This document shows, one piece after another, positions 4,492-34,781 of a stretch of DNA of 43,417 bases. The notes under the pieces were generated by a model, which was not told the DNA's origin, ran no database searches, and worked only from the letters and a program-made list of their open reading frames with translations. Positions within the stretch are counted from its first letter, which is position 1, and each line of letters opens with the position of its first letter. The stretch spans positions 1-43,417 of the forward strand of contig MTND01000039.1 in NCBI GenBank assembly GCA_002010305.1, in the 5' to 3' direction. The position numbers were made by a program, and so were the translations under genes. This DNA is from Archaeoglobi archaeon JdFR-42. Its GTDB lineage: Archaea; Halobacteriota; Archaeoglobi; Archaeoglobales; JdFR-42.

Positions 4492-6552
4492 TCATATTTT
4501 CTTAACTCTGCATGGGATACCTCTGTACATGGGAGCTCCGGTGAGAGGCTCAAACCGCATATCATCGGTAATGAGATTAGCATTGCATTCTACCCATCCG
4601 TGAGGTATTGATACAGTAAATGGATGCATGTCCTGCTTGATAGTAGCTTTCATCTCGATACTTCCTGTATGGGTTTCTATTGTGATGGTATCTCTATCTG
4701 AAAGCCTGATATGGCGAGCTATCCCCCCTCCAACCTCTGCAACGGGATCAGGATTCAATCTCCTCAATCTCTCTATATTCCTGAACTGAGAATGGTAATA
4801 TGCCTGAGTCCTAGCTCCAGTAATCAGAAGGTAGGGATAATCATCAGATTCGGCTGGATGACTAACTGGTTCTGGTATATCCATCCCATAGGATTTCAGG
4901 ATGGAAGAAACCAGCTCTATTCTGCCAGAAGGGGTGTTGAACCCTCTATCCCTGAAGTATCCTGGGTGTATCTCTTCCACCAGTACGCCTTTTTCCAGTT
5001 CTTCAAGGGAATACCTTTCGACCTCACTTCCTCTGAGCAATTCCATCAGTATCTCATCTTCTGACTGAAAGTTGAAGTACTCTTCATATCCCATCCTCGC
5101 TCCGAGCATGCTCATGAATTCTGCCTCTGATTTAGAGTCCTGAAGAGGTTCAACAATTCTCCTTCTAACCCTTATCCATCTCAGTTTTTTCAGAGGAACC
5201 GCATCGATTTCAGCCTTCTCGTAAAAGGTACTTGCCGGCAGCACTAGATCAGCAAAATTGCATGTTTCCGTCAGAAATATATCATGCACAGCTATAAATT
5301 CCAGCTTTTTCATAGCTTTTACGAATTTATGAGTGTTTGGGAGAGTTAATACAGGATTGGATTTGAACACTATCATGGCCTTTATCGGATATGGTTTTTC
5401 TGAAAGTATGACTTCAGACAGATATCCACTGCAATCCAAGGCAAGGGGGAATTTCTCTCCCCAGAATGGCTTTTTACCATCTGGCAGCATTTCCCTCAAA
5501 GTGATGTCTTTCAGTGTTATGGATGGATTGAAGATTAGACCACCTTTAACGTCTACATTGCCAGTCAGAGCCATCAGGATAGCGATAGCTCTGGCAGTCT
5601 GTAGTCCGTTGACACTGTGAAGGATCCCTTCACGCCTGTCTATGGATGCTGGTCTGGATTCTACAAACAGTTCTGTAACTTCTCTGATCAAACTGGCAGG
5701 TATGTCTGTCCTTTTTTCAACCCTGTCAAGATCGTATCCATTGATCCTGCTAGCCAGCTCCTCAAATCCTGTTGTATATCTTTCCACAAAATCATGGTCA
5801 TACAGATCGTTCTCGATGATATACTGTATCATTCCCAAGGCCAGATATATGTCTGAATTGGGTCTGATTTTTAGATGATAGTCTGCAACTCTTGCTGTTT
5901 CAGATTTTCTTGGATCTACAACAACAACAGGTGCACCTCTCTTCTTTGCAGTCATTATGTCCTCAACTACACCATGATATCTATGGATCTTAGATACAGC
6001 AGGGTTGGTACCCCAGAGCATGATGAAGTTAGCATTGACAAAATCACATGTTGGATAGAGAGGCGTTCCGAAAGTGGCCATGTAACCTAGAACTTTAGGG
6101 CCGACACAATAAGACCAGCTACCAGTAACGTTAGGAGTACCATACAAATTGGCAAATCTCTTCACCATGCTTCTGTCGACGATTCTCCCCGTAGGACCGT
6201 GGAGAAACACAAGAGACTCTGGCCCATATTTTTCTCTTAATTCTTTCAGGTTTCTTTTTATTATCTCAAGGGCTCTATCCCAGTCTATCTTTTCCCATTC
6301 AGGTGCACCTCTCTCTCCGACATTCAGGAGGGGTGTTGTAAGCCTGTCTTTATGATACAGGATTTCTAGGGAATTCTTGCCTTTAACACATAACTTTCCC
6401 CTGTTATTGGGGTTCTCTTTATCTCCTTCCACCCTCACAATTTTTCCGTTCTCTATATAGGCTATGATGCCACAATCACATTTACAGATCTGACACATGG
6501 TTCTTCTTATTTTCACACTCTCTTTTGATTCTACTTCCAATTCCCTTTTCAA
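4492..6552 (-). CDS. Molybdopterin (Mo/W-bisPGD) oxidoreductase family protein
   Basis: This 686-residue protein belongs to the complex iron-sulfur molybdoenzyme catalytic subunits. An N-terminal [4Fe-4S] site is formed by C20, C23, C27 and C55 (CVKG), with one extra Cys at 25. Three bisPGD domains follow: the LYGTPNVTGSWSYC region puts C149 at the expected metal-ligand position; NFIMLWGTNPA and VVVDPRKSETA are cofactor-binding loops; LPASTFYEKA and the C-terminal PSGRIELVS and HGWVECNANLI segments complete the fold. It lacks a Tat signal and is probably cytosolic. No electron-transfer subunit is next to it. It starts with TTG, 6 bp after a perfect GGAGGT, and is 1 bp from the stop of the upstream methyltransferase gene, so the two form an operon. 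The substrate cannot be read; the thiosulfate reductase/acetylene hydratase-like branch is a guess. Confidence 0.88.
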   Translation of the reverse strand: MKRELEVESKESVKIRRTMCQICKCDCGIIAYIENGKIVRVEGDKENPNNRGKLCVKGKNSLEILYHKDRLTTPLLNVGERGAPEWEKIDWDRALEIIKRNLKELREKYGPESLVFLHGPTGRIVDRSMVKRFANLYGTPNVTGSWSYCVGPKVLGYMATFGTPLYPTCDFVNANFIMLWGTNPAVSKIHRYHGVVEDIMTAKKRGAPVVVVDPRKSETARVADYHLKIRPNSDIYLALGMIQYIIENDLYDHDFVERYTTGFEELASRINGYDLDRVEKRTDIPASLIREVTELFVESRPASIDRREGILHSVNGLQTARAIAILMALTGNVDVKGGLIFNPSITLKDITLREMLPDGKKPFWGEKFPLALDCSGYLSEVILSEKPYPIKAMIVFKSNPVLTLPNTHKFVKAMKKLEFIAVHDIFLTETCNFADLVLPASTFYEKAEIDAVPLKKLRWIRVRRRIVEPLQDSKSEAEFMSMLGARMGYEEYFNFQSEDEILMELLRGSEVERYSLEELEKGVLVEEIHPGYFRDRGFNTPSGRIELVSSILKSYGMDIPEPVSHPAESDDYPYLLITGARTQAYYHSQFRNIERLRRLNPDPVAEVGGGIARHIRLSDRDTITIETHTGSIEMKATIKQDMHPFTVSIPHGWVECNANLITDDMRFEPLTGAPMYRGIPCRVKKI

Positions 6553-6553
6553 T

Positions 6554-7540
6554 TCACAACCTCCAGGATTTCGCTACTGCCACCATGACCTTCAGGTTCT
6601 CCACAGGTGACTCTGGTGGAACACCACATCCGGGCATCAGTATAAAATTATCTGGCCCTCCATCCTGAATCGCCTGTATCGATTCCTCTTTTACCTTTTC
6701 TGGAGAACCAAACATCAGAGTATCGATCGGATTTATATTTCCACCTATGGTGACTTCTTTCATTACGGATCTGGCCTCTCTCAGACTAATCTTCTGATCG
6801 AGACTGTATGCGCTTCCCATGAGATCAGGCATGTATCTCCAGATTTTTCTGGTATCTCCACACATGTGGATAATCACAGGGATATGTTTTCTGGTGTGCT
6901 GAACGAGTTTTCTAAGATAAGGGAAAGAGAAGTGTTTAGCATGCTGGGGAGAGATCATATCTGGAGTGGAAGAAGGGTCAGGGATATACAGCAAATCAGC
7001 TCCACTTTCCACAACTCTGTCTGTGAAGTTAATAAGAGCTCGAAGGATCATTTTAAGGGCTTTTTTAATCGTATCAGGATCACGATACATGGCCACGAGA
7101 AGAGCTTCTGCATCGAAAATCCTGGTAGCAGTAGTAAAAGGACCCTCAAAGAGCGCCATCACAGGTTTACTAGATTGTTCTGATGCATACTGTATGGCAT
7201 CCAGTATCACTTTGACACTTTCAGTTTCATTGAAATCAGGAAGGGAAAGCTTATCATTTATGGAGAGGGTTTTCTGTATTACCGGTCCAAAACGGGTGAA
7301 TTTAATCTGACATCCAAAAGCCTCAGGGATGTAATTGGCATCATAGTATACTGAAACTGCATCAGCATCAATCTTCTTTTGAAAGTTTATTTGGGCACTG
7401 GCCAGTTTCTTGCCATCTGATCTGATATTCTGAGGTGACTCTCCAGAATACTTAATGGCTATGGATCCTGTGGGGATAAGTACAGGGACCCTGTCTGGTG
7501 GTTCTTTTTCCAAGACCTGTAGGAGAGGGTTTATTCGCAT
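6554..7540 (-). CDS. MtaA/CmuA-like (UroD-fold) methyltransferase
   Basis: The 328-residue protein is of the uroporphyrinogen decarboxylase superfamily, in the branch of methylcobamide:coenzyme M methyltransferases. The zinc-binding pattern is visible: HMCGD (His and Cys two apart, about residues 225-227) and a later Cys in LMPGCGVPPESP (about 304). These match the His-X-Cys...Cys set of MtaA/MtbA, and true decarboxylases lack them. The family moves a methyl group between a corrinoid and a thiol. The start is taken at ATG 7540; a TTG three bases upstream is less likely. It is the first gene of an operon with the Mo/W oxidoreductase. No corrinoid protein gene is adjacent. A palindromic TATA box lies about 45 bp upstream. 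Confidence 0.85.
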   Translation of the reverse strand: MRINPLLQVLEKEPPDRVPVLIPTGSIAIKYSGESPQNIRSDGKKLASAQINFQKKIDADAVSVYYDANYIPEAFGCQIKFTRFGPVIQKTLSINDKLSLPDFNETESVKVILDAIQYASEQSSKPVMALFEGPFTTATRIFDAEALLVAMYRDPDTIKKALKMILRALINFTDRVVESGADLLYIPDPSSTPDMISPQHAKHFSFPYLRKLVQHTRKHIPVIIHMCGDTRKIWRYMPDLMGSAYSLDQKISLREARSVMKEVTIGGNINPIDTLMFGSPEKVKEESIQAIQDGGPDNFILMPGCGVPPESPVENLKVMVAVAKSWRL

Positions 7541-7578
7541 CAATTATCACAACTTTCAGATTAATCTCTCACAGACAT

Positions 7579-25372: not shown

Positions 25373-25415
25373 GGATTTATGTGACAGAATGGTAGTAACA
25401 CTTTGAGGTGATTGG

Positions 25416-26540
25416 ATGGTAGACCTAACGATCGAGTTTGCAGGTGTAGAATTTCCAAATCCTGTCTGGCTTGGTTCAGGAATGCCAGGCAGAAACGACG
25501 TACGATTGATTGATTTTGCGAAAGGTGGTGCAGGAGGTATTGTCACAAAAACCATCGTGCCTGATGGAACACCGTCTCCTAAACCGAGAATAGCTATGAC
25601 GGATTGTGGGATGCAGAACATTGAACTCTTTACCGGCCTCCCTCCTGATGTATGGTTTGGAAAATACCTGCCTGCATATAAAAAGGAAACCAATGTACCC
25701 CTCGTGGTAAGTGTTGCAGGCTCAAATACCGAAGAATTCGTTCTGATGGCTGAAAGGGCTGAGGAATTTGCTGATCTGATTGAGCTGAATTTTTCCTGTC
25801 CCCATTTTAAAGGAAGAGGGAGTGACATAGGACAGGTTCCTGAGCTGACTGAAGAGATAACTCGGGAGGTAAAGAAAGCGGTATCTGTGCCGGTTATGCC
25901 GAAACTCACACCCAACATAACCGATCCAAAAGTGATCGCTCAGGCAGCTCTGAAAGGGGGAGCAAACGCTCTTTCTGCTATCAACACCATAAAATGTATT
26001 ATTGGTATCGATATATATGAGGAAAAACCTATTCTTCCCGCCATCGGGGGCTATTCTGGAAAAGCTGTTAAGCCAATTGCTCTGAGGCATGTATATGAAA
26101 TAACCAATGCTGTGGATCTACCAGTATGTGGGATAGGTGGAATAGAAAGGTGGCAGGACGTAGTTGAGTTCTTCATGGTAGGGGCTCTCTCAACTCAGAT
26201 TTGTACTGGAGCTATGGTTCATGGGCCAAAGCTGTTCTCCAGAATAACGAAAGGTCTGGAAGGGTTTATGGATGAGAAGGGTTACGATACCATTAAGGAG
26301 ATGGTGGGAGTTGCCAAGAAGCATTTCTATGAATCCGCAAGTCTCATGCCAACTGAACCCACAGCTCAGCCTGTGATAACAGATAAATGTAACCTGTGTA
26401 AGAAATGTATTAGGGCGTGCTCCTACTATGCCATCTATGAGGGTGATAATCAGGCAATAGTGGATTATGAGAAATGTCATAGATGCGGTCTCTGCTATTA
26501 TGTATGCCCCATAGATGCAATAGAGTTGGAGAAGGTGTGA
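25416..26540 (+). CDS. preA: Dihydropyrimidine dehydrogenase PreA-type subunit
   Basis: The enzyme reduces uracil or thymine to the dihydro form. The 374-residue protein has an FMN-binding TIM barrel of the dihydroorotate dehydrogenase class, from PNPVWLGSGMPG (about 14-25) to GIGGIERWQD. The catalytic Cys is C128 in NFSCPH, as in mammalian DPD and bacterial PreA and unlike the Ser of many DHODs. A C-terminal double ferredoxin follows (CNLCKKCIRAC and CHRCGLCYYVC, about 325-367). No PreT-like NAD(P)H subunit is next to it, so ferredoxin or a distant partner must donate electrons. It is the first gene of a three-gene path operon; the next starts 3 bp after its stop. Confidence 0.9.
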   Translation: MVDLTIEFAGVEFPNPVWLGSGMPGRNDVRLIDFAKGGAGGIVTKTIVPDGTPSPKPRIAMTDCGMQNIELFTGLPPDVWFGKYLPAYKKETNVPLVVSVAGSNTEEFVLMAERAEEFADLIELNFSCPHFKGRGSDIGQVPELTEEITREVKKAVSVPVMPKLTPNITDPKVIAQAALKGGANALSAINTIKCIIGIDIYEEKPILPAIGGYSGKAVKPIALRHVYEITNAVDLPVCGIGGIERWQDVVEFFMVGALSTQICTGAMVHGPKLFSRITKGLEGFMDEKGYDTIKEMVGVAKKHFYESASLMPTEPTAQPVITDKCNLCKKCIRACSYYAIYEGDNQAIVDYEKCHRCGLCYYVCPIDAIELEKV

Positions 26541-26543
26541 GAG

Positions 26544-27902
26544 ATGGATCTTGTAGTAAATAATGGGAAGGTTGTAACTCCCCAGGGTGTTTTTCAGGCC
26601 AATATCGGTATAGAGGGAGAAAAGATTGCAACCATTTCTAAGTCTCCGCTGAAAGGAGATGAGGTAATAGACGTCAGTGGGAAACTGGTAATGCCTGGGG
26701 TTATTGATCCCCATGTCCACATGGAACTCCCTTTCGGTGGGACAGTTTCAGCCGATGATTTCAAAACAGGAACTATAGCAGGGGCTTTTGGTGGTGTGAC
26801 GACCATAATAGACTTTGCAATCCAACCTAAAGGAGAGAGTCCTTTTTCTGCTATTGAAGCCAGAAAGAAAGCAGCAGAAGGAAAGGTTGTGGTGGATTTT
26901 GCTCTCCACGCCTCTCTGACGGATATGGAGAAAGTGGAGGATGGAGATATCAGGAAGATTATAGAGATGGGCCTCCCCTCTTTTAAACTGTTCATGACTT
27001 ATCGAAAGGAAGGTCTGATGGTGGACGATGGAACTCTTTTCGCTCTTCTTCAGGAGACAGCCAGTTTGAAAGGTCTTGTGGGAGTGCATGCAGAAAATGC
27101 GGCTGTTCTGGAATATCTGATTGCAAAATTCCTCAGAGAGGGGAAAACTGAACCTAAATATCACGCTCTGAGCAGACCGAATTTTGTGGAAGGAGAATGT
27201 ATAAACAGAGCAATCACCCTTACCGAGGAGGCAAATTCCAGTCTGTATATATTTCATATGTCAACGAAAGAAGGACTGGAGGCAGTTAAGTCTGCAAAGA
27301 CGCGTGGAGTAAAGGTTTTGGCTGAAACCTGCCCTCATTATTTGATGCTCACGGATGAGAAATATGAAGAAAATGGGCAGCTATATGTCATGAGCCCTCC
27401 ACTCAGAAAACGGGAAGACAATGAGGCTCTGTGGCAGGGTGTTGTCAATGGTTGGATCGATGTGGTGAGCACTGATCACTGTCCCTTTCGAACAGACCAG
27501 AAGGCTATGGGAGACACTTTTGACAAGATACCCAATGGTGTACCTGGAATTGAAACCCTGTTGCCAGTGATGTTTTCTGAGGGATTAAAGAGAGGTATGC
27601 CCCTTGAACGTCTGGTAGAAGTGTTGAGCTACAATCCTGCAAGGATTTTTGGTCTTGAAAATAAAGGGGCCATTGAAGTCGGAAAAGACGCTGACCTCGT
27701 TATACTAGATCCCAGAGAAGAACGGACTCTTTCGTATGAGACTCTGCACATGAACTTGGACTACAGTATTTTTGAAGGTCTGAAGGTGAAAGGATATCCG
27801 GTTACCACCATCTCCAGAGGAGAGGTGATAGTAGATAACAATGAGTTCTATGGAAAGGAGGGTCGAGGTCGGTTTATTGAAAGAGTTTCGGGTGGATGGT
27901 AA
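26544..27902 (+). CDS. hydA: Dihydropyrimidinase (D-hydantoinase family)
   Basis: The enzyme opens the ring of 5,6-dihydrouracil to N-carbamoyl-beta-alanine. The 452-residue amidohydrolase has all metal ligands: H57 and H59 (DPHVH), the lysine to be carboxylated K148 (LPSFKLFMTY), H182 (GVHAEN), H238 (FHMSTKEG) and D311 (VSTDHCPF). The FKLFMTY and STDHCPF forms are characteristic of dihydropyrimidinases as opposed to dihydroorotases. It sits between the dehydrogenase and the amidase of the same path. Other cyclic imides or hydantoins are possible substrates. Confidence 0.92.
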   Translation: MDLVVNNGKVVTPQGVFQANIGIEGEKIATISKSPLKGDEVIDVSGKLVMPGVIDPHVHMELPFGGTVSADDFKTGTIAGAFGGVTTIIDFAIQPKGESPFSAIEARKKAAEGKVVVDFALHASLTDMEKVEDGDIRKIIEMGLPSFKLFMTYRKEGLMVDDGTLFALLQETASLKGLVGVHAENAAVLEYLIAKFLREGKTEPKYHALSRPNFVEGECINRAITLTEEANSSLYIFHMSTKEGLEAVKSAKTRGVKVLAETCPHYLMLTDEKYEENGQLYVMSPPLRKREDNEALWQGVVNGWIDVVSTDHCPFRTDQKAMGDTFDKIPNGVPGIETLLPVMFSEGLKRGMPLERLVEVLSYNPARIFGLENKGAIEVGKDADLVILDPREERTLSYETLHMNLDYSIFEGLKVKGYPVTTISRGEVIVDNNEFYGKEGRGRFIERVSGGW

Positions 27903-27929
27903 AGAAATGTAACAGGAGGAGGTATAGAA

Positions 27930-28772
27930 ATGGTTAAAATTGGACTTGTACAGATGAAGTGTGTTGAAGATAAACAGGCAAATGTGGACAAGGCTATTGA
28001 AAAAATAGGTGAAGCTGTGGATCAGGGAGCAAAGATTGTATGTCTACAGGAGCTGTTCAATGGGATATATTTCCCTCAGTATCTGGATAACAAGTTTTTC
28101 AGTCTGTATCCTGAACCTGTACCAGGTGGAGAAAGTATTGTAAAGATGCAGGAAGTGGCTGAAGAAAACAACATCGTACTGGTTGTTCCTGTTTGGGAAG
28201 AGGCAGAGAAAGGCGTGTATTACAATACTGCTGCCGTGATAGATGCCAATGGTGAGTACTTGGGTAAATACAGGAAAACCCATATCCCCCATCTGGCACA
28301 GTATCAGGAGAAGTATTATTTCACACCTGGGGATCTTGGATATCCAGTTTTTGAGACAAAATACGGGCGTGTTGGTATAGCTATCTGCTATGACAGGCAC
28401 TTCCCTGAGTGTTTCAGATCCCTAGCCCTTGGAGGAGCGGAAATCGTCTTTGTTCCAACTGCAACAGCAGGATGGACACGATACCTCTGGGATCTTGAAA
28501 TAAGAGGGCATGCTGTCGCAAACATGTTCTTTGTTGCAGGGTTGAACAGAGTAGGCCAAGAGGGTGACATGGAGTTTTATGGTTCAAGTTACATAGCCGA
28601 TCCTAAAGGTCAGTACGTGGAGGATAAACAAGCTAGCGATACCGAGGAAGAAGTGCTGGTAGTGGACTGTGACTTCGATCAGATTGCAGAAGTCAGAAAA
28701 ATGTGGCATTTCTTCAGAGATAGAAGACCAAGCATGTACAAGAAGATTTGCTCCTACCCAGCCCTTCCATAA
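27930..28772 (+). CDS. N-carbamoyl-beta-alanine amidohydrolase-like nitrilase
   Basis: The protein of 280 residues belongs to the nitrilase superfamily, with the full triad: E41 (LQELFNG), K116 (GKYRKTHIPH) and C153 (AICYDRHFPE). The GKYRKTHIPH and CYDRHFPE forms match the beta-ureidopropionase/N-carbamoylputrescine amidase group. In this operon the expected reaction is N-carbamoyl-beta-alanine to beta-alanine, CO2 and ammonia, which completes reductive pyrimidine breakdown. A strong SD site (AGGAGGAGG) lies upstream. Putrescine synthesis from carbamoylputrescine is the main alternative, but the two preceding genes favour the pyrimidine role. Confidence 0.9.
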   Translation: MVKIGLVQMKCVEDKQANVDKAIEKIGEAVDQGAKIVCLQELFNGIYFPQYLDNKFFSLYPEPVPGGESIVKMQEVAEENNIVLVVPVWEEAEKGVYYNTAAVIDANGEYLGKYRKTHIPHLAQYQEKYYFTPGDLGYPVFETKYGRVGIAICYDRHFPECFRSLALGGAEIVFVPTATAGWTRYLWDLEIRGHAVANMFFVAGLNRVGQEGDMEFYGSSYIADPKGQYVEDKQASDTEEEVLVVDCDFDQIAEVRKMWHFFRDRRPSMYKKICSYPALP

Positions 28773-28787
28773 ATTCTATAAGTTCCG

Positions 28788-28830
28788 TAGGGTTACATCC
28801 CTATTTTATTTTTTCAGGGTTCACCCTTTT
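28788..28830 (+). terminator. Tandem hairpins with T tracts ending the pyrimidine operon
   Basis: TAGGG-TTACAT-CCCTA (28788-28803) is followed by TTTTATTTTTT. A second stem, AGGGT-TC-ACCCT (28816-28827), is followed by TTT. Both read as terminators on the plus strand after the nitrilase gene and protect the convergent gene from read-through. Confidence 0.55.
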
Positions 28831-28858: not shown

Positions 28859-29911
28859 CTATTTTAGCGATTCTACTGGAGCGTCATGAGCAGCCTGAGT
28901 GAAAGCTTTTATGTTTTCGTAAGGGACGGTTGCCGGGATATCGCAGCCTGGCATCAGAACGTAAGCCCCCCCTTCAAAGTACTGTTTTCCAGCGGTTTCA
29001 ATGGCTTTTTTAGCCTGATCATACACGGATTCTGGAGTTGCATCATGGAGTACCGTAACTGGATCCAGGTTCCCTCCCATGCATATTTTTCCCTTAAGTT
29101 TTTCTACTGCAAAAGCCAGATCTACTCTGTGATCTAGGCTAAACAGGTCGGCTCCACTCTCTGGCATGATTTCTAGTCTATCGGATGTATCTCCACAAAT
29201 ATGGAGAATGGTTTTTACACCCAGTTTGGAATAAGTTTCTGTCAAATTCTTAAGGTATGGTAGAGCAAATTCTTTAAAGTGTTTTGGAGAAACAAGATCT
29301 CCCGCTGCTGTGGGATCAGCGATACTCACACATTCCAGAATCCCCTCTTCGATCAACGGTTTATAAAATCTTTTTATGGCTTGGAGAGCAAATTCAATTA
29401 CTTTTCTTGCAAAATCCGGTTGTTTATACAGATCTATCAGTAATCTTTCCGCCCCCCTGAACTGACCGGCAAGAGTAAAGGGACCCCATTGAGTTGTGGC
29501 TACCAGATATGTGTCTCCTATTTTTTCGGCAACCATTCGGGTTGTTTTTCGTATCGAGTCGATAACTGGATATTCATCAATTTTATCAAGTTCGAGCAGA
29601 TCCAGGTCTTCTGGAGATGTTACGATGGGTCTGGCAAGTTCTGGAGCTGAATTCTTGGGATACTTCATCTCCCCTCCAAGAGCAGCGCCGGGATAGTTGT
29701 TGTAACCAGATCCAGGGTATACCACATCACTCCTCAACTTTTCGGCTATTTTTACCATAACGGCAGCATATTCTTCTGGATCCGTCTCGAAAGTCTGAAA
29801 GGTATTATTCGTGTTAAAAATGGTCCACATTCCTCCCCCAAAAAAGGCAACTGGAATCCTATCAGGGATATTGAGATCCATAGCCGCTAAAATAACGTCT
29901 TTTGGATTCAT
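28859..29911 (-). CDS. MtaA/CmuA-like (UroD-fold) methyltransferase, second copy
   Basis: The 350-residue protein is a second UroD-superfamily member with the methyltransferase zinc pattern: HICGD (about residues 239-243) and LMPGCDIPATVPYEN (Cys about 322). It shares the layout of the copy at 6554-7540 but differs in most residues. It keeps SLDHRVDL and GGNLDPV, where the other has SLDQKISL and GGNINPI. Methyl transfer between a corrinoid protein and a thiol is the family role. No corrinoid protein is nearby. An 8-bp inverted repeat covers its start codon. The transglutaminase-like gene lies 122 bp upstream on the same strand. The substrate is unknown. Confidence 0.85.
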   Translation of the reverse strand: MNPKDVILAAMDLNIPDRIPVAFFGGGMWTIFNTNNTFQTFETDPEEYAAVMVKIAEKLRSDVVYPGSGYNNYPGAALGGEMKYPKNSAPELARPIVTSPEDLDLLELDKIDEYPVIDSIRKTTRMVAEKIGDTYLVATTQWGPFTLAGQFRGAERLLIDLYKQPDFARKVIEFALQAIKRFYKPLIEEGILECVSIADPTAAGDLVSPKHFKEFALPYLKNLTETYSKLGVKTILHICGDTSDRLEIMPESGADLFSLDHRVDLAFAVEKLKGKICMGGNLDPVTVLHDATPESVYDQAKKAIETAGKQYFEGGAYVLMPGCDIPATVPYENIKAFTQAAHDAPVESLK

Positions 29912-29926
29912 GATATCTTCATGAAT
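29906..29926. repeat. Inverted repeat over the start codon of the second methyltransferase gene
   Basis: ATTCATGA and TCATGAAT form an 8-bp inverted repeat around a 5-base spacer. The start codon (complement of 29909-29911) lies in one arm. It could hide the start in an mRNA hairpin or bind a repressor. Confidence 0.4.
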
Positions 29927-30033
29927 ATTGTGGTGATTTAAGGCTTGCGATGGTTTAACTTCAAAAGTAGAACCATTTTACGGATATATATGAGTCAAAA
30001 AAATAAGCAAGTGAAAAAGAGAAAATGATGGTC

Positions 30034-30951
30034 TTACAGTTTCCACCGCCCTTCTTCTATCACATACTGCTGGATGTCCTTGTAATATCTGGATTTAGTA
30101 TCTTCGATCTCGTCCTCGATCAACCATCTTGAAGGTTCTCCCTTTCTCGGATCTGGAACATCATCAGGTACTTTCCAAAAAGGGTACGGGCATGATTTGA
30201 GGTATGTGTGTCTGGCGAAGTTCTCCAGGTAGGGTTTACCCCATATCTTCTCTAGATGCTCCCATTTCTCTTCCTTGGACATCTCCCTAACTTGGTTGGT
30301 ATAGGGATCAATGTTTTTCTGGCAGAATGCCTTAGTAACACCGATCTCTTTGAATTGCTTCAGCAGGGTATCTTTGAGGATGTTGGGAGTGTGTCCAAGA
30401 TTAGCATATACGTGGTCTGGCACTACCATATTGAAGCTATCATATGCGTACCACTGGTAGTCAAAAGGAAGCATGGGTCTGTCGAAGAAGGGATCAGCCT
30501 CGATCCACCTCCCGCCAATGTACACCTCAATGGTGTTGTGGATGAATGCATTCACAGGCAGTTGGTCTACCAACTCAGGAGGTACAAAGATTTTGGGATA
30601 ATCACGATAGCACAGTGTGTATGTGAATCTTGCTGGTATCTTATTTAAACGGTACAGTGTTACCTGCAGGTTTGTTCTATTAAAGCAATTTCCCTCTCCC
30701 TCTTCTATGGTATCCCTGGCACTTTTGGGGGGTTCATAACATAATTTGAGGTTCTCGACTACCCAGTTCCATATATTTACAGCAAGTTCTCGAGGAGTTT
30801 CAACTCCTTCAGCAAGTTTGGCAGCGAGATCTCTAACAACTTCGTCTTTTGCATCTTCATAAGGCGTATCCACAAAATATCTATCAAAATCTGGTTCCTG
30901 TGGCGGTTCCCATGGTACAGGACTGTCAAAATCCTCATACGGTTTTTTCAT
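30034..30951 (-). CDS. Transglutaminase-like cysteine protease superfamily protein
   Basis: The 305-residue protein has the transglutaminase-core triad: C89 in GEGNCFNRTNLQ, H138 in AFIHNTIEVY, and D153 in WIEADPFFD. The Cys segment is followed by IPARF, usual in the fold. There is no signal peptide or membrane helix, so it should be cytosolic, unlike many exported members. The C-terminal 140 residues are rich in Trp, Lys and Pro and are not recognised. The start is supported by GAGGGG 6 bp upstream and an AT-rich box (ATTATATATTAATT) about 45 bp upstream. The substrate could be a peptide or amide; the family includes peptidases and deamidases. Confidence 0.8.
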   Translation of the reverse strand: MKKPYEDFDSPVPWEPPQEPDFDRYFVDTPYEDAKDEVVRDLAAKLAEGVETPRELAVNIWNWVVENLKLCYEPPKSARDTIEEGEGNCFNRTNLQVTLYRLNKIPARFTYTLCYRDYPKIFVPPELVDQLPVNAFIHNTIEVYIGGRWIEADPFFDRPMLPFDYQWYAYDSFNMVVPDHVYANLGHTPNILKDTLLKQFKEIGVTKAFCQKNIDPYTNQVREMSKEEKWEHLEKIWGKPYLENFARHTYLKSCPYPFWKVPDDVPDPRKGEPSRWLIEDEIEDTKSRYYKDIQQYVIEEGRWKL

Positions 30952-31545
30952 ACATGTCCCCTCTTTTTTTATTTTACACGTAGTTTAATTAATATATAAT
31001 CATTACGCTTCAAGTTTCGTTAATTTATTATTGGTGGTATGAAAAAATAAAAAATATCGGGTTAATTTAATCGAACAAATTAGCAGATTTTATTTAACGT
31101 CTTTACCAGCTACATGCATGTATGTTGAATTGTTCTCAAGCTTTTATGCCTTAGTAATTGCTGAATTCATCTTATGCCCGCTCCCGCTTTTAGTAAATGT
31201 GTGACAAAGCTACATCTTAAAGTATGTAGAGTTACTTTCTTTTCTATTTCCACTTTTTTGGCGGTTATAAAACTCTACTTTAACCTTCCAATTGAGGTGT
31301 TGTGGGAATAATAGCTGCGTAAAATACGCGTTATATGACATTCAACCCCTTTGCTGCTGGAAAGAAGATTTTATAAAAATAAAAATGTTAATGGTGTTAT
31401 AGTGGAAGGAAAAAAGATATTTTAACTAATGGAAGAATGGATCAAATCAAAAAAATAAATGGATTGGGAGATTGAGAGTGGCTATGAGTTTTCCAAATAT
31501 AAGACTGAAGGAAAAATTACTCGGGATATATAGAAGGGGAAAATT
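30952..31545. other. A+T-rich gap before the radical SAM gene
   Basis: No convincing gene is seen in these 594 bases. The left end holds the promoter and SD site of the transglutaminase-like gene. A short stem GCGTA-AAA-TACGC lies near 31317-31329. Near the right end an ATG at 31459 opens 24 codons (MDWEIESGYEFSKYKTEGKI, then TRDI) ending at TAG 31531-31533. A second 24-codon frame at 31478-31552 overlaps the radical SAM start. Both could be leader peptides, remnants or chance. The region is visibly richer in A and T than the genes on either side. Confidence 0.5.
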
Positions 31546-32433
31546 ATGGTAAATGAAATCCAAGTAAAATCAGTTTTAAACAAACATAAAAGGAGAGATG
31601 ATTGGTTTTTGGATGATTATTCGGTAAATCCTTATGAGAGTTGCTCTTTTAATTGTATTTATTGTTACATCAGGGGAAGTAAATATGGAGAGAATATGGC
31701 AAAGACTCTATCAGCAAAAATAAATGCCCCGGAAATACTGAGAAAGCAATTAAAAAGAAGATCAAAAAAAGAAGAGCACGGTATTATCGCCTTATCAACT
31801 TCAACAGAGCCTTATATGGAAATTGAGGAAACTCTGAAGTTGACAAGGAGATTACTTGAAGTCATTCTAAGATATAAGTTTCCAGTTCATATTTTGACAA
31901 AATCGACCTTGGTTTTAAGAGATCTGGATTTGCTAAACGAAATTGATAAAAATGCAATTTTACCGAAGGATTTAAGGGGTAAATTAAATCGTGGCGTAAT
32001 AATTTCATTTTCCATTTCAACTTTGGATGAGAAACTGGCAAAAATTCTTGAGCGTAGGGCACCTAAACCAATAGAACGATTAGAGACAATGCAAAAATGT
32101 AAAGAAGAAGGCTTTTTAACAGGGATTTGTTTCATTCCCGTTTTGCCTTATCTTTCAGATTCTGAAGAACAACTTGATGAAATGATAAAAACAGCAAGAG
32201 ATTATGGAGCAGATTTTGTTTTGGTGGGAGCATTAACTTTATTTGGAAATAAACCTGCAGATTGCAAAACACTTTACTATAAATTCTTGGAAAAGTGTTA
32301 CCCAGAAATTGTACCAAAATATAAGAGTTTATTCAGAATTTTCTTTCAACCATCAAAAGAATATCAGAAAGAACTTGAAGAAAAATCAAAGAGATTGTGT
32401 GAGAAATATGGAATTAAAAATAGTATTGTCTAA
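31546..32433 (+). CDS. Radical SAM protein, SPL/photolyase-like (COG1533-like)
   Basis: The 295-residue protein has the radical SAM cluster motif CX3CX2C at C33, C37, C40 (ESCSFNCIYCY), preceded by VNPYESC as in the spore photoproduct lyase-like group. STSTEPYMEIE (about residues 84-94), ILTKS, ISFSIST and ERRAPKPIERL follow the family pattern of the SAM-binding barrel. AAGGGG lies 5 bp before the ATG. The function is unknown; relatives are named DNA repair photolyases without much proof. Codons are strongly A/T-biased (many AAA, AGA, TTA, ATT), and wide gaps lie on both sides, which suggests acquisition from another lineage. Confidence 0.85.
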   Translation: MVNEIQVKSVLNKHKRRDDWFLDDYSVNPYESCSFNCIYCYIRGSKYGENMAKTLSAKINAPEILRKQLKRRSKKEEHGIIALSTSTEPYMEIEETLKLTRRLLEVILRYKFPVHILTKSTLVLRDLDLLNEIDKNAILPKDLRGKLNRGVIISFSISTLDEKLAKILERRAPKPIERLETMQKCKEEGFLTGICFIPVLPYLSDSEEQLDEMIKTARDYGADFVLVGALTLFGNKPADCKTLYYKFLEKCYPEIVPKYKSLFRIFFQPSKEYQKELEEKSKRLCEKYGIKNSIV

Positions 32434-32869
32434 TAGTGACTTTAGATGGAACGCTTCGTCGAGTCATATAATACAGGCTATACGGTTCACTTCGTTTACC
32501 CCAAATTTGTTCTATCGGGTAGCTTTACATATATATTCAACGATTACTATGATATGTTAACAGATTCAGCCTCCGCAAGGTTATAAGTGTGGCATATCTA
32601 TTAAGGGTTATTACTAAGGAAAATAAAATTTGAAAGATATACCTCTTTATGATCATAATTGAGACTGAATTTTTCCTCTTGCAGGTATTATACCGTCTTG
32701 GGGATGTTTATACTTAATTGCTGATATGGAGTATACAGGAGATAAGGCCAATTGATGTTAAAAGTTTTATGAGAATAGAGAGGGCGTGTAGCTCTCTGTA
32801 ATATGATGCATTCAAGTATAAAGATTATAACATTGAGAGGTCAATATATTCTAACAGGAGTTGTATCTA
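32434..32869. other. Gap between the radical SAM and DUF2769 genes
   Basis: No firm feature is seen. An ATG at 32446 opens 46 codons (MERFVESYNTGYTVHFVYPK...) to TAA at 32586, directly after an in-frame stop and with no SD sequence. It is not recognisable and may be a remnant. AGGAG at 32856-32860 is the SD site of the next gene, and TATAAAG near 32815 may be its promoter. Confidence 0.4.

Positions 32870-33337: not shown

Positions 33338-34781
<1,444 letters not shown>

Follow-up and report, generated by a model that had tools for sequence, protein, structure and literature searches.

Three adjacent genes in a 43,417-nt stretch of DNA from the anaerobic Archaeoglobi archaeon JdFR-42 (contig MTND01000039.1 of assembly GCA_002010305.1; hereafter the window) can with good confidence be read as a putative operon of the reductive pyrimidine (Pyd) pathway, leading from uracil or thymine to beta-alanine or beta-aminoisobutyrate. 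The list of open reading frames (ORFs) and the profile matches place genes for a reductase (PydA), a dihydropyrimidinase (PydB) and a ureidopropionase (PydC) side by side at positions 25416-28772, on the forward strand and with gaps of 3 bp (pydA/pydB) and 27 bp (pydB/pydC), just as described in an original prediction. The window is contig C21 of the source genome (G000), an unclosed assembly of 2.15 Mb in 42 contigs that is 99.6% complete. For all three proteins the profile E-values are far beyond chance and the active-site residues are present, which agrees with the predicted completeness of the pathway; as a whole, the earlier interpretation is partly supported.

In the proposed mechanism, PydA, with flavin mononucleotide (FMN), would reduce uracil (or thymine) to the corresponding dihydropyrimidine, PydB would open the ring to give 3-ureidopropionate, and PydC would free beta-alanine, CO2 and ammonia from the latter. 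Low-potential electrons would reach PydA by way of the two-cluster ferredoxin domain at its C-terminus, with reduced ferredoxin as the most likely source. Judged from sequence, the operon likely turns pyrimidine into beta-alanine and ammonia; we infer the substrates, the direction and the electron donor given here.

Active-site residues of the three proteins

PydB (positions 26544-27902, + strand, 452 aa) matched the dihydropyrimidinase equivalog model TIGR02033 with 502 bits (E-value 1.1e-150), passing the cut-off of 393 bits. All metal ligands (H57, H59, K148, H182, H238, D311) are in place, as had been claimed, together with the substrate residues Y153, S284 and N331. A paralogue of PydB on contig C22 of the same genome has kept the metal ligands and not the equivalents of these three substrate residues. 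PydC (positions 27930-28772, + strand, 280 aa) belongs to the nitrilase superfamily (Pfam CN_hydrolase, 1.7e-60). The predicted Glu-Lys-Cys triad, read from motif positions, consists of E41, K116 and C153, and the Arg-His following the Cys is present, as is the motif LWxLE. The Cys lies within the sequence CYDRHFPE, which PydC shares with the nitrilases of the Pyd clusters of a related archaeon (G010), Cytobacillus and Streptomyces.

The pydA-like gene (positions 25416-26540, + strand, 374 aa) encodes a putative FMN-binding dihydropyrimidine dehydrogenase of the dihydroorotate dehydrogenase (DHOD) fold, with matches to NCBIfam PreA and to Pfam DHO_dh and Fer4. The residues that contact the pyrimidine in pig dihydropyrimidine dehydrogenase (DPD) are N609, E611, N668, S670, C671, N736 and T737. 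In an alignment with the pig enzyme, all of them are found in PydA, as N68, E70, N125, S127, C128, N190 and T191. The catalytic Cys named in the original prediction, C128, is thus present; since it is common to DHODs as well, the discriminating residue is not C128 but E70, the equivalent of Glu-611; at this position DHODs carry a hydrophobic residue, and the Gly of their carboxylate loop comes next. This loop, N-A-x-G-L in DHODs, is N-I-E-L-F in PydA and hence has the DPD form. PydA matches 21 of the 34 conserved columns specific for PreA, more than half of these matches falling in the ferredoxin region at the C-terminus, which DHODs are without, and 5 of the 23 columns specific for DHODs.

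The C-terminal region of PydA forms a 2x[4Fe-4S] ferredoxin domain with eight Cys (residues 325-364), and the protein has no module for flavin adenine dinucleotide (FAD) and NAD(P)H. At the sensitivity of the search, no orthologue of the NAD(P)H subunit PreT was detected in the operon or in the rest of the genome, where the best match (37.5 bits) is thioredoxin-reductase-like; its predicted absence is borne out. With no FAD/NAD(P)H subunit among the encoded proteins, reduced ferredoxin is the most likely donor to PydA, and a ferredoxin-like donor other than NAD(P)H is plausible. Ferredoxin-dependent uracil reduction and pyd clusters without PreT are known from strictly anaerobic Clostridiales (PMC7332683). 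The PydAc of Clostridium chromiireducens, compared here by its description, is a single-subunit uracil reductase with FMN and Fe-S clusters, encoded in a strict anaerobe among Pyd genes without an FAD/NAD(P)H module, and accepts electrons from reduced ferredoxin or methyl viologen (PMC7332683). It differs in having two ferredoxin domains, the second of which is a separate ORF in C. pasteurianum (PMC7332683), whereas PydA has one domain with its eight Cys and neither a second ferredoxin domain nor a ferredoxin ORF was found beside pydA.

Beta-alanine supply and nitrogen scavenging

The chemistry proposed above leaves room for two roles. Archaeal phosphopantothenate synthetase, an enzyme of coenzyme A (CoA) synthesis, requires beta-alanine. 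MfnA is the archaeal aspartate/tyrosine decarboxylase, which also makes tyramine for the synthesis of methanofuran. In studied archaea, the supply of beta-alanine has been attributed to pyridoxal phosphate-dependent aspartate decarboxylases of the MfnA/GAD type (PMC6650551, PMC7142369).

The operon might serve only for the scavenging of pyrimidine nitrogen (and carbon), with the beta-alanine for CoA coming from a decarboxylase that escaped the search or from the medium, and we give this catabolic role about an even chance. It agrees with the Pyd island of G010, a member of the same order, which looks catabolic: this locus (L025) comprises upp, an NCS1 permease gene, pydC, pydB, an iron-dependent alcohol dehydrogenase gene, a canonical preA, and genes for a class III aminotransferase and an Lrp-like regulator. 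A relative thus combines the same enzyme set with genes for transport and salvage. Furthermore, C. chromiireducens, equipped with such genes, can use uracil as its only source of nitrogen for growth (PMC7332683). However, neither a transporter nor genes for downstream steps of beta-alanine metabolism were found next to the operon in the window, and the missing decarboxylases discussed below also speak against a purely catabolic role.

Alternatively, uracil from nucleotide turnover or uptake may be the source of beta-alanine for phosphopantothenate and CoA, a tentative reading to which we assign a lower probability and which would refine the role of the operon, not its chemistry. The comparison set contained one relative from the family of the source genome, most of the other relatives searched being from its order. 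MfnA matches exceed the cut-off in 57 of the 60 relatives; G000 gave no real match, the three weak ones being two cysteine desulfurases and SepSecS. The block that adjoins MfnA in the relative G001 is intact and contig-interior in G000, and neither MfnA nor a remnant of it is located there. As the position of MfnA varies among relatives, this empty-site argument rests on one comparison. PanD was not found in G000 either, while phosphopantothenate synthetase is present, and the operon in the window stops at beta-alanine, whereas G010 has the aminotransferase and keeps MfnA. A precedent exists in Rhizobium etli, for which, without an aspartate decarboxylase, the reductive pyrimidine route was proposed to feed pantothenate (PMC7142369); this organism is a bacterium with an M20-type beta-alanine synthase, in contrast to the archaeal CoA route through pantoate kinase and phosphopantothenate synthetase.

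Against the anabolic role, it has to be considered that the argument comes from a single genome in 42 unclosed contigs and that pyd genes and MfnA coexist in G010. In addition, MfnB is retained in G000 (C13:56909-57589), which leads one to expect methanofuran synthesis and, for it, a tyrosine decarboxylase of some kind; this enzyme might also act on aspartate. The evidence for the operon as the beta-alanine source of CoA is therefore suggestive. The label "degradation" in the original prediction may place the emphasis wrongly, given that the operon ends at beta-alanine and that MfnA and PanD were not found.

Lineage of PydA and rival substrates

Several observations weigh against the assignment of the operon to uracil reduction, most of them concerning PydA. 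The protein misses both relevant NCBIfam cut-offs, although narrowly: that of the PreA model with 316 bits (2.7e-94; cut-off 335) and that of the DHOD model with 263.8 bits (cut-off 270). The loop after C128 has the length seen in DHODs, and the branch of PydA is long. In the trees, PydA branches on the DHOD side of the stem and not within the PreA/DPD clade as sampled (support 97/94 for the full length and 94/93 for the domain only), while a clade of PydA with PreA was not rejected (approximately unbiased test, p-AU 0.139). The single ferredoxin domain, compared with two in the tested ferredoxin-dependent enzyme, and the lack of transporter and downstream genes next to the operon belong to the same side of the balance. 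Similarity searches point in different directions: DHODs rank first in a phmmer search of the PDB, the top matches in a plasmid collection are annotated as PreA, and a scan of genome contigs yielded only distant bacterial relatives. An AlphaFold model has a mean predicted local distance difference test (pLDDT) score of 71.7 and is weak at the active-site loops (residues 51-71 and 129-136) and in the ferredoxin domain.

These placements would suit a DHOD-lineage enzyme for another substrate, the substrates of the operon then being a related cyclic ureide or compounds similar to dihydroorotate. We consider this unlikely, as the N-I-E-L sequence of DPD form replaces N-A-x-G-L in PydA, PydB and PydC are specific for the next two steps of the pathway, and the genome already has its own PyrD-PyrK. 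This separate pair is located on contig C19 and serves biosynthesis; no pyrK adjoins pydA. Moreover, dihydrouracil oxidases of fungi, which lie outside DPD, are DHOD-family proteins able to act on dihydrouracil (PMC9585004), so the tree placement of PydA alone is not decisive; these enzymes differ in being Class I-A-like and oxygen-dependent and in working in the reverse direction. A grouping of the dehydrogenase with DHODs, named beforehand as an outcome that would speak against the pathway, was thus found in part: the tree falls on the DHOD side, while the site is DPD-like and the PreA placement was not rejected. The most fitting description of PydA is that of a separate, deep-branching lineage whose site appears DPD-like in sequence.

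The least probable alternative, that PydC is an N-carbamoylputrescine amidase (AguB) or a D-carbamoylase of the hydantoin pathway, draws on AguB-type proteins being the top NCBIfam and PDB matches, with up to 50% identity to methanogen AguB proteins, but is very improbable in view of a score of 281 bits against the AguB equivalog cut-off of 410, of the presence of LWxLE, of a motif, CYDRHFPE, other than the C[YW]DQWFPE of AguB and the CNDRRWPE of D-carbamoylase, of a tree that joins PydC to Pyd-cluster nitrilases (82/72) apart from AguB (87/83), and of aguA not adjoining pydC. Support in this tree, which was built without two distant rows and without an AguA half, is moderate. By analogy with D-carbamoylases, the Arg of CYDRHFPE would bind the carboxylate of the substrate, which carbamoylputrescine is without. 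The beta-ureidopropionases of human and Drosophila carry CYGRHHP instead. Across 394 genomes of the phylum, the nitrilases nearest to PydC after those of G000 and G010 are AguB-type wherever the motif was readable in the fetched loci. For the enzymes of the operon, identities as AguB, D-carbamoylase, hydantoinase or DHOD were considered and set aside.

A more far-reaching scenario combines these elements: the uracil route would have replaced aspartate decarboxylation for CoA, with a reductase that arose from or beside DHOD, apart from PreA/DPD, and took electrons from ferredoxin through a single two-cluster domain. At present, we regard this combination as rather unlikely.

Further PreA-like proteins were noted. 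G000 has a second Fe-S paralogue without the NIE motif (L021:496-2453, contig C24), which sits after an ORF resembling an isochorismatase-family hydrolase, and a similar gene occurs in G001 (L023:822-1973, contig C26). In Clostridia (L066-L070), a PreA-like paralogue with NIR instead of NIE is located upstream of a PreT-PreA pair and has perhaps a different substrate.

Related clusters, neighbouring genes and significance

The three-gene order of the window was to be sought in relatives. G010 has the same three enzymes, and no PreT in its cluster, but in a different order, with extra genes and with a canonical PreA. Between the two archaea, identity is 54% for PydB, 57% for PydC and 41.6% for the reductases, so the hydrolases are close whereas the first enzymes are of different lineage. 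A decayed island of the G010 type was observed in another relative (G012:C3, L024:5714-10283), in which the aminotransferase and alcohol dehydrogenase genes are broken and PreA is intact; transposase/resolvase-like ORFs adjoin it. Orphan PreA-like genes with the DPD-type motif occur in other families of the phylum (L075-L082, L084-L086), where no gene for PreT or a ureidopropionase was found within about 8 kb; one has a distant amidohydrolase nearby and none a PydC-like neighbour. The bacterial NAD(P)H-dependent systems (PreTA/PydA1-A2), represented by E. coli PreTA and a Cytobacillus cluster (L155), share the pyrimidine-site residues and, in Cytobacillus, PydB and a CYDRHFPE nitrilase next to preA, but possess the PreT-type subunit that the window is without.

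The pathway itself is already known from eukaryotes as well as bacteria, including bacteria without PreT (PMC7332683), and a gene set leading from uracil to beta-alanine was predicted in Haloferax volcanii (PMC6801745). Archaea are also listed among its holders (PMC7332683). The statement that it is rarely described in strictly anaerobic archaea is qualified by these archaeal records and by the precedent in Clostridiales. Measured against open-licence papers in PubMed Central, to which our literature search refers and which fall short of proof of novelty, three elements are new: that this order of archaea has the pathway, that the reductase of the window is divergent and carries one ferredoxin domain, and that the role may be anabolic.

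Signals around the operon on the + strand were partly as predicted. Good Shine-Dalgarno-like motifs precede pydA (GAGGTGA, 25405-25411) and pydC (AGGAGGAGG, 27915-27923), that of pydB being weak. A terminator-like hairpin (28787-28804, with a T-rich tail to 28814) follows pydC, which is weak evidence, since the pattern scan of the region returned 5 hairpins against 3.3 expected from shuffling, hardly above chance. The pyrB-pyrI genes, placed about 5 kb away in the original prediction, begin at 33395, 4.6 kb beyond the operon; other genes in the window include those for SepRS, TYW1 and Agl23. Two methyltransferase-like proteins of the MtaA/CmuA family, both under the family cut-offs, are encoded on the reverse strand at 6554-7543 and 28859-29911, the former adjoining a formate-dehydrogenase-like protein (4492-6552). 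Elsewhere in the genome (G000:C2, about 29129-32624; L148:5130-8625), a PSTK-like kinase is fused to SelB in one ORF followed by SepSecS, which from their sequences is selenocysteine machinery. It resembles what is described in one Archaeoglobi species (PMC8762117, PMC9499178); the 13 kb of sequence examined yielded no tRNA-Sec.

For annotation, the signatures NIE in PydA and CYDRHFPE in PydC can serve to recognise pyd genes in archaea; with default profiles, these genes fall under the cut-off or near AguB. PydA may be a uracil reductase of minimal build, independent of NAD(P)H, from which the relation of the DPD site to DHOD can be seen. The supply of beta-alanine is an essential step of CoA synthesis, and a genome without a detected MfnA but with a full predicted operon from uracil to beta-alanine allows direct tests of an alternative route in archaea.

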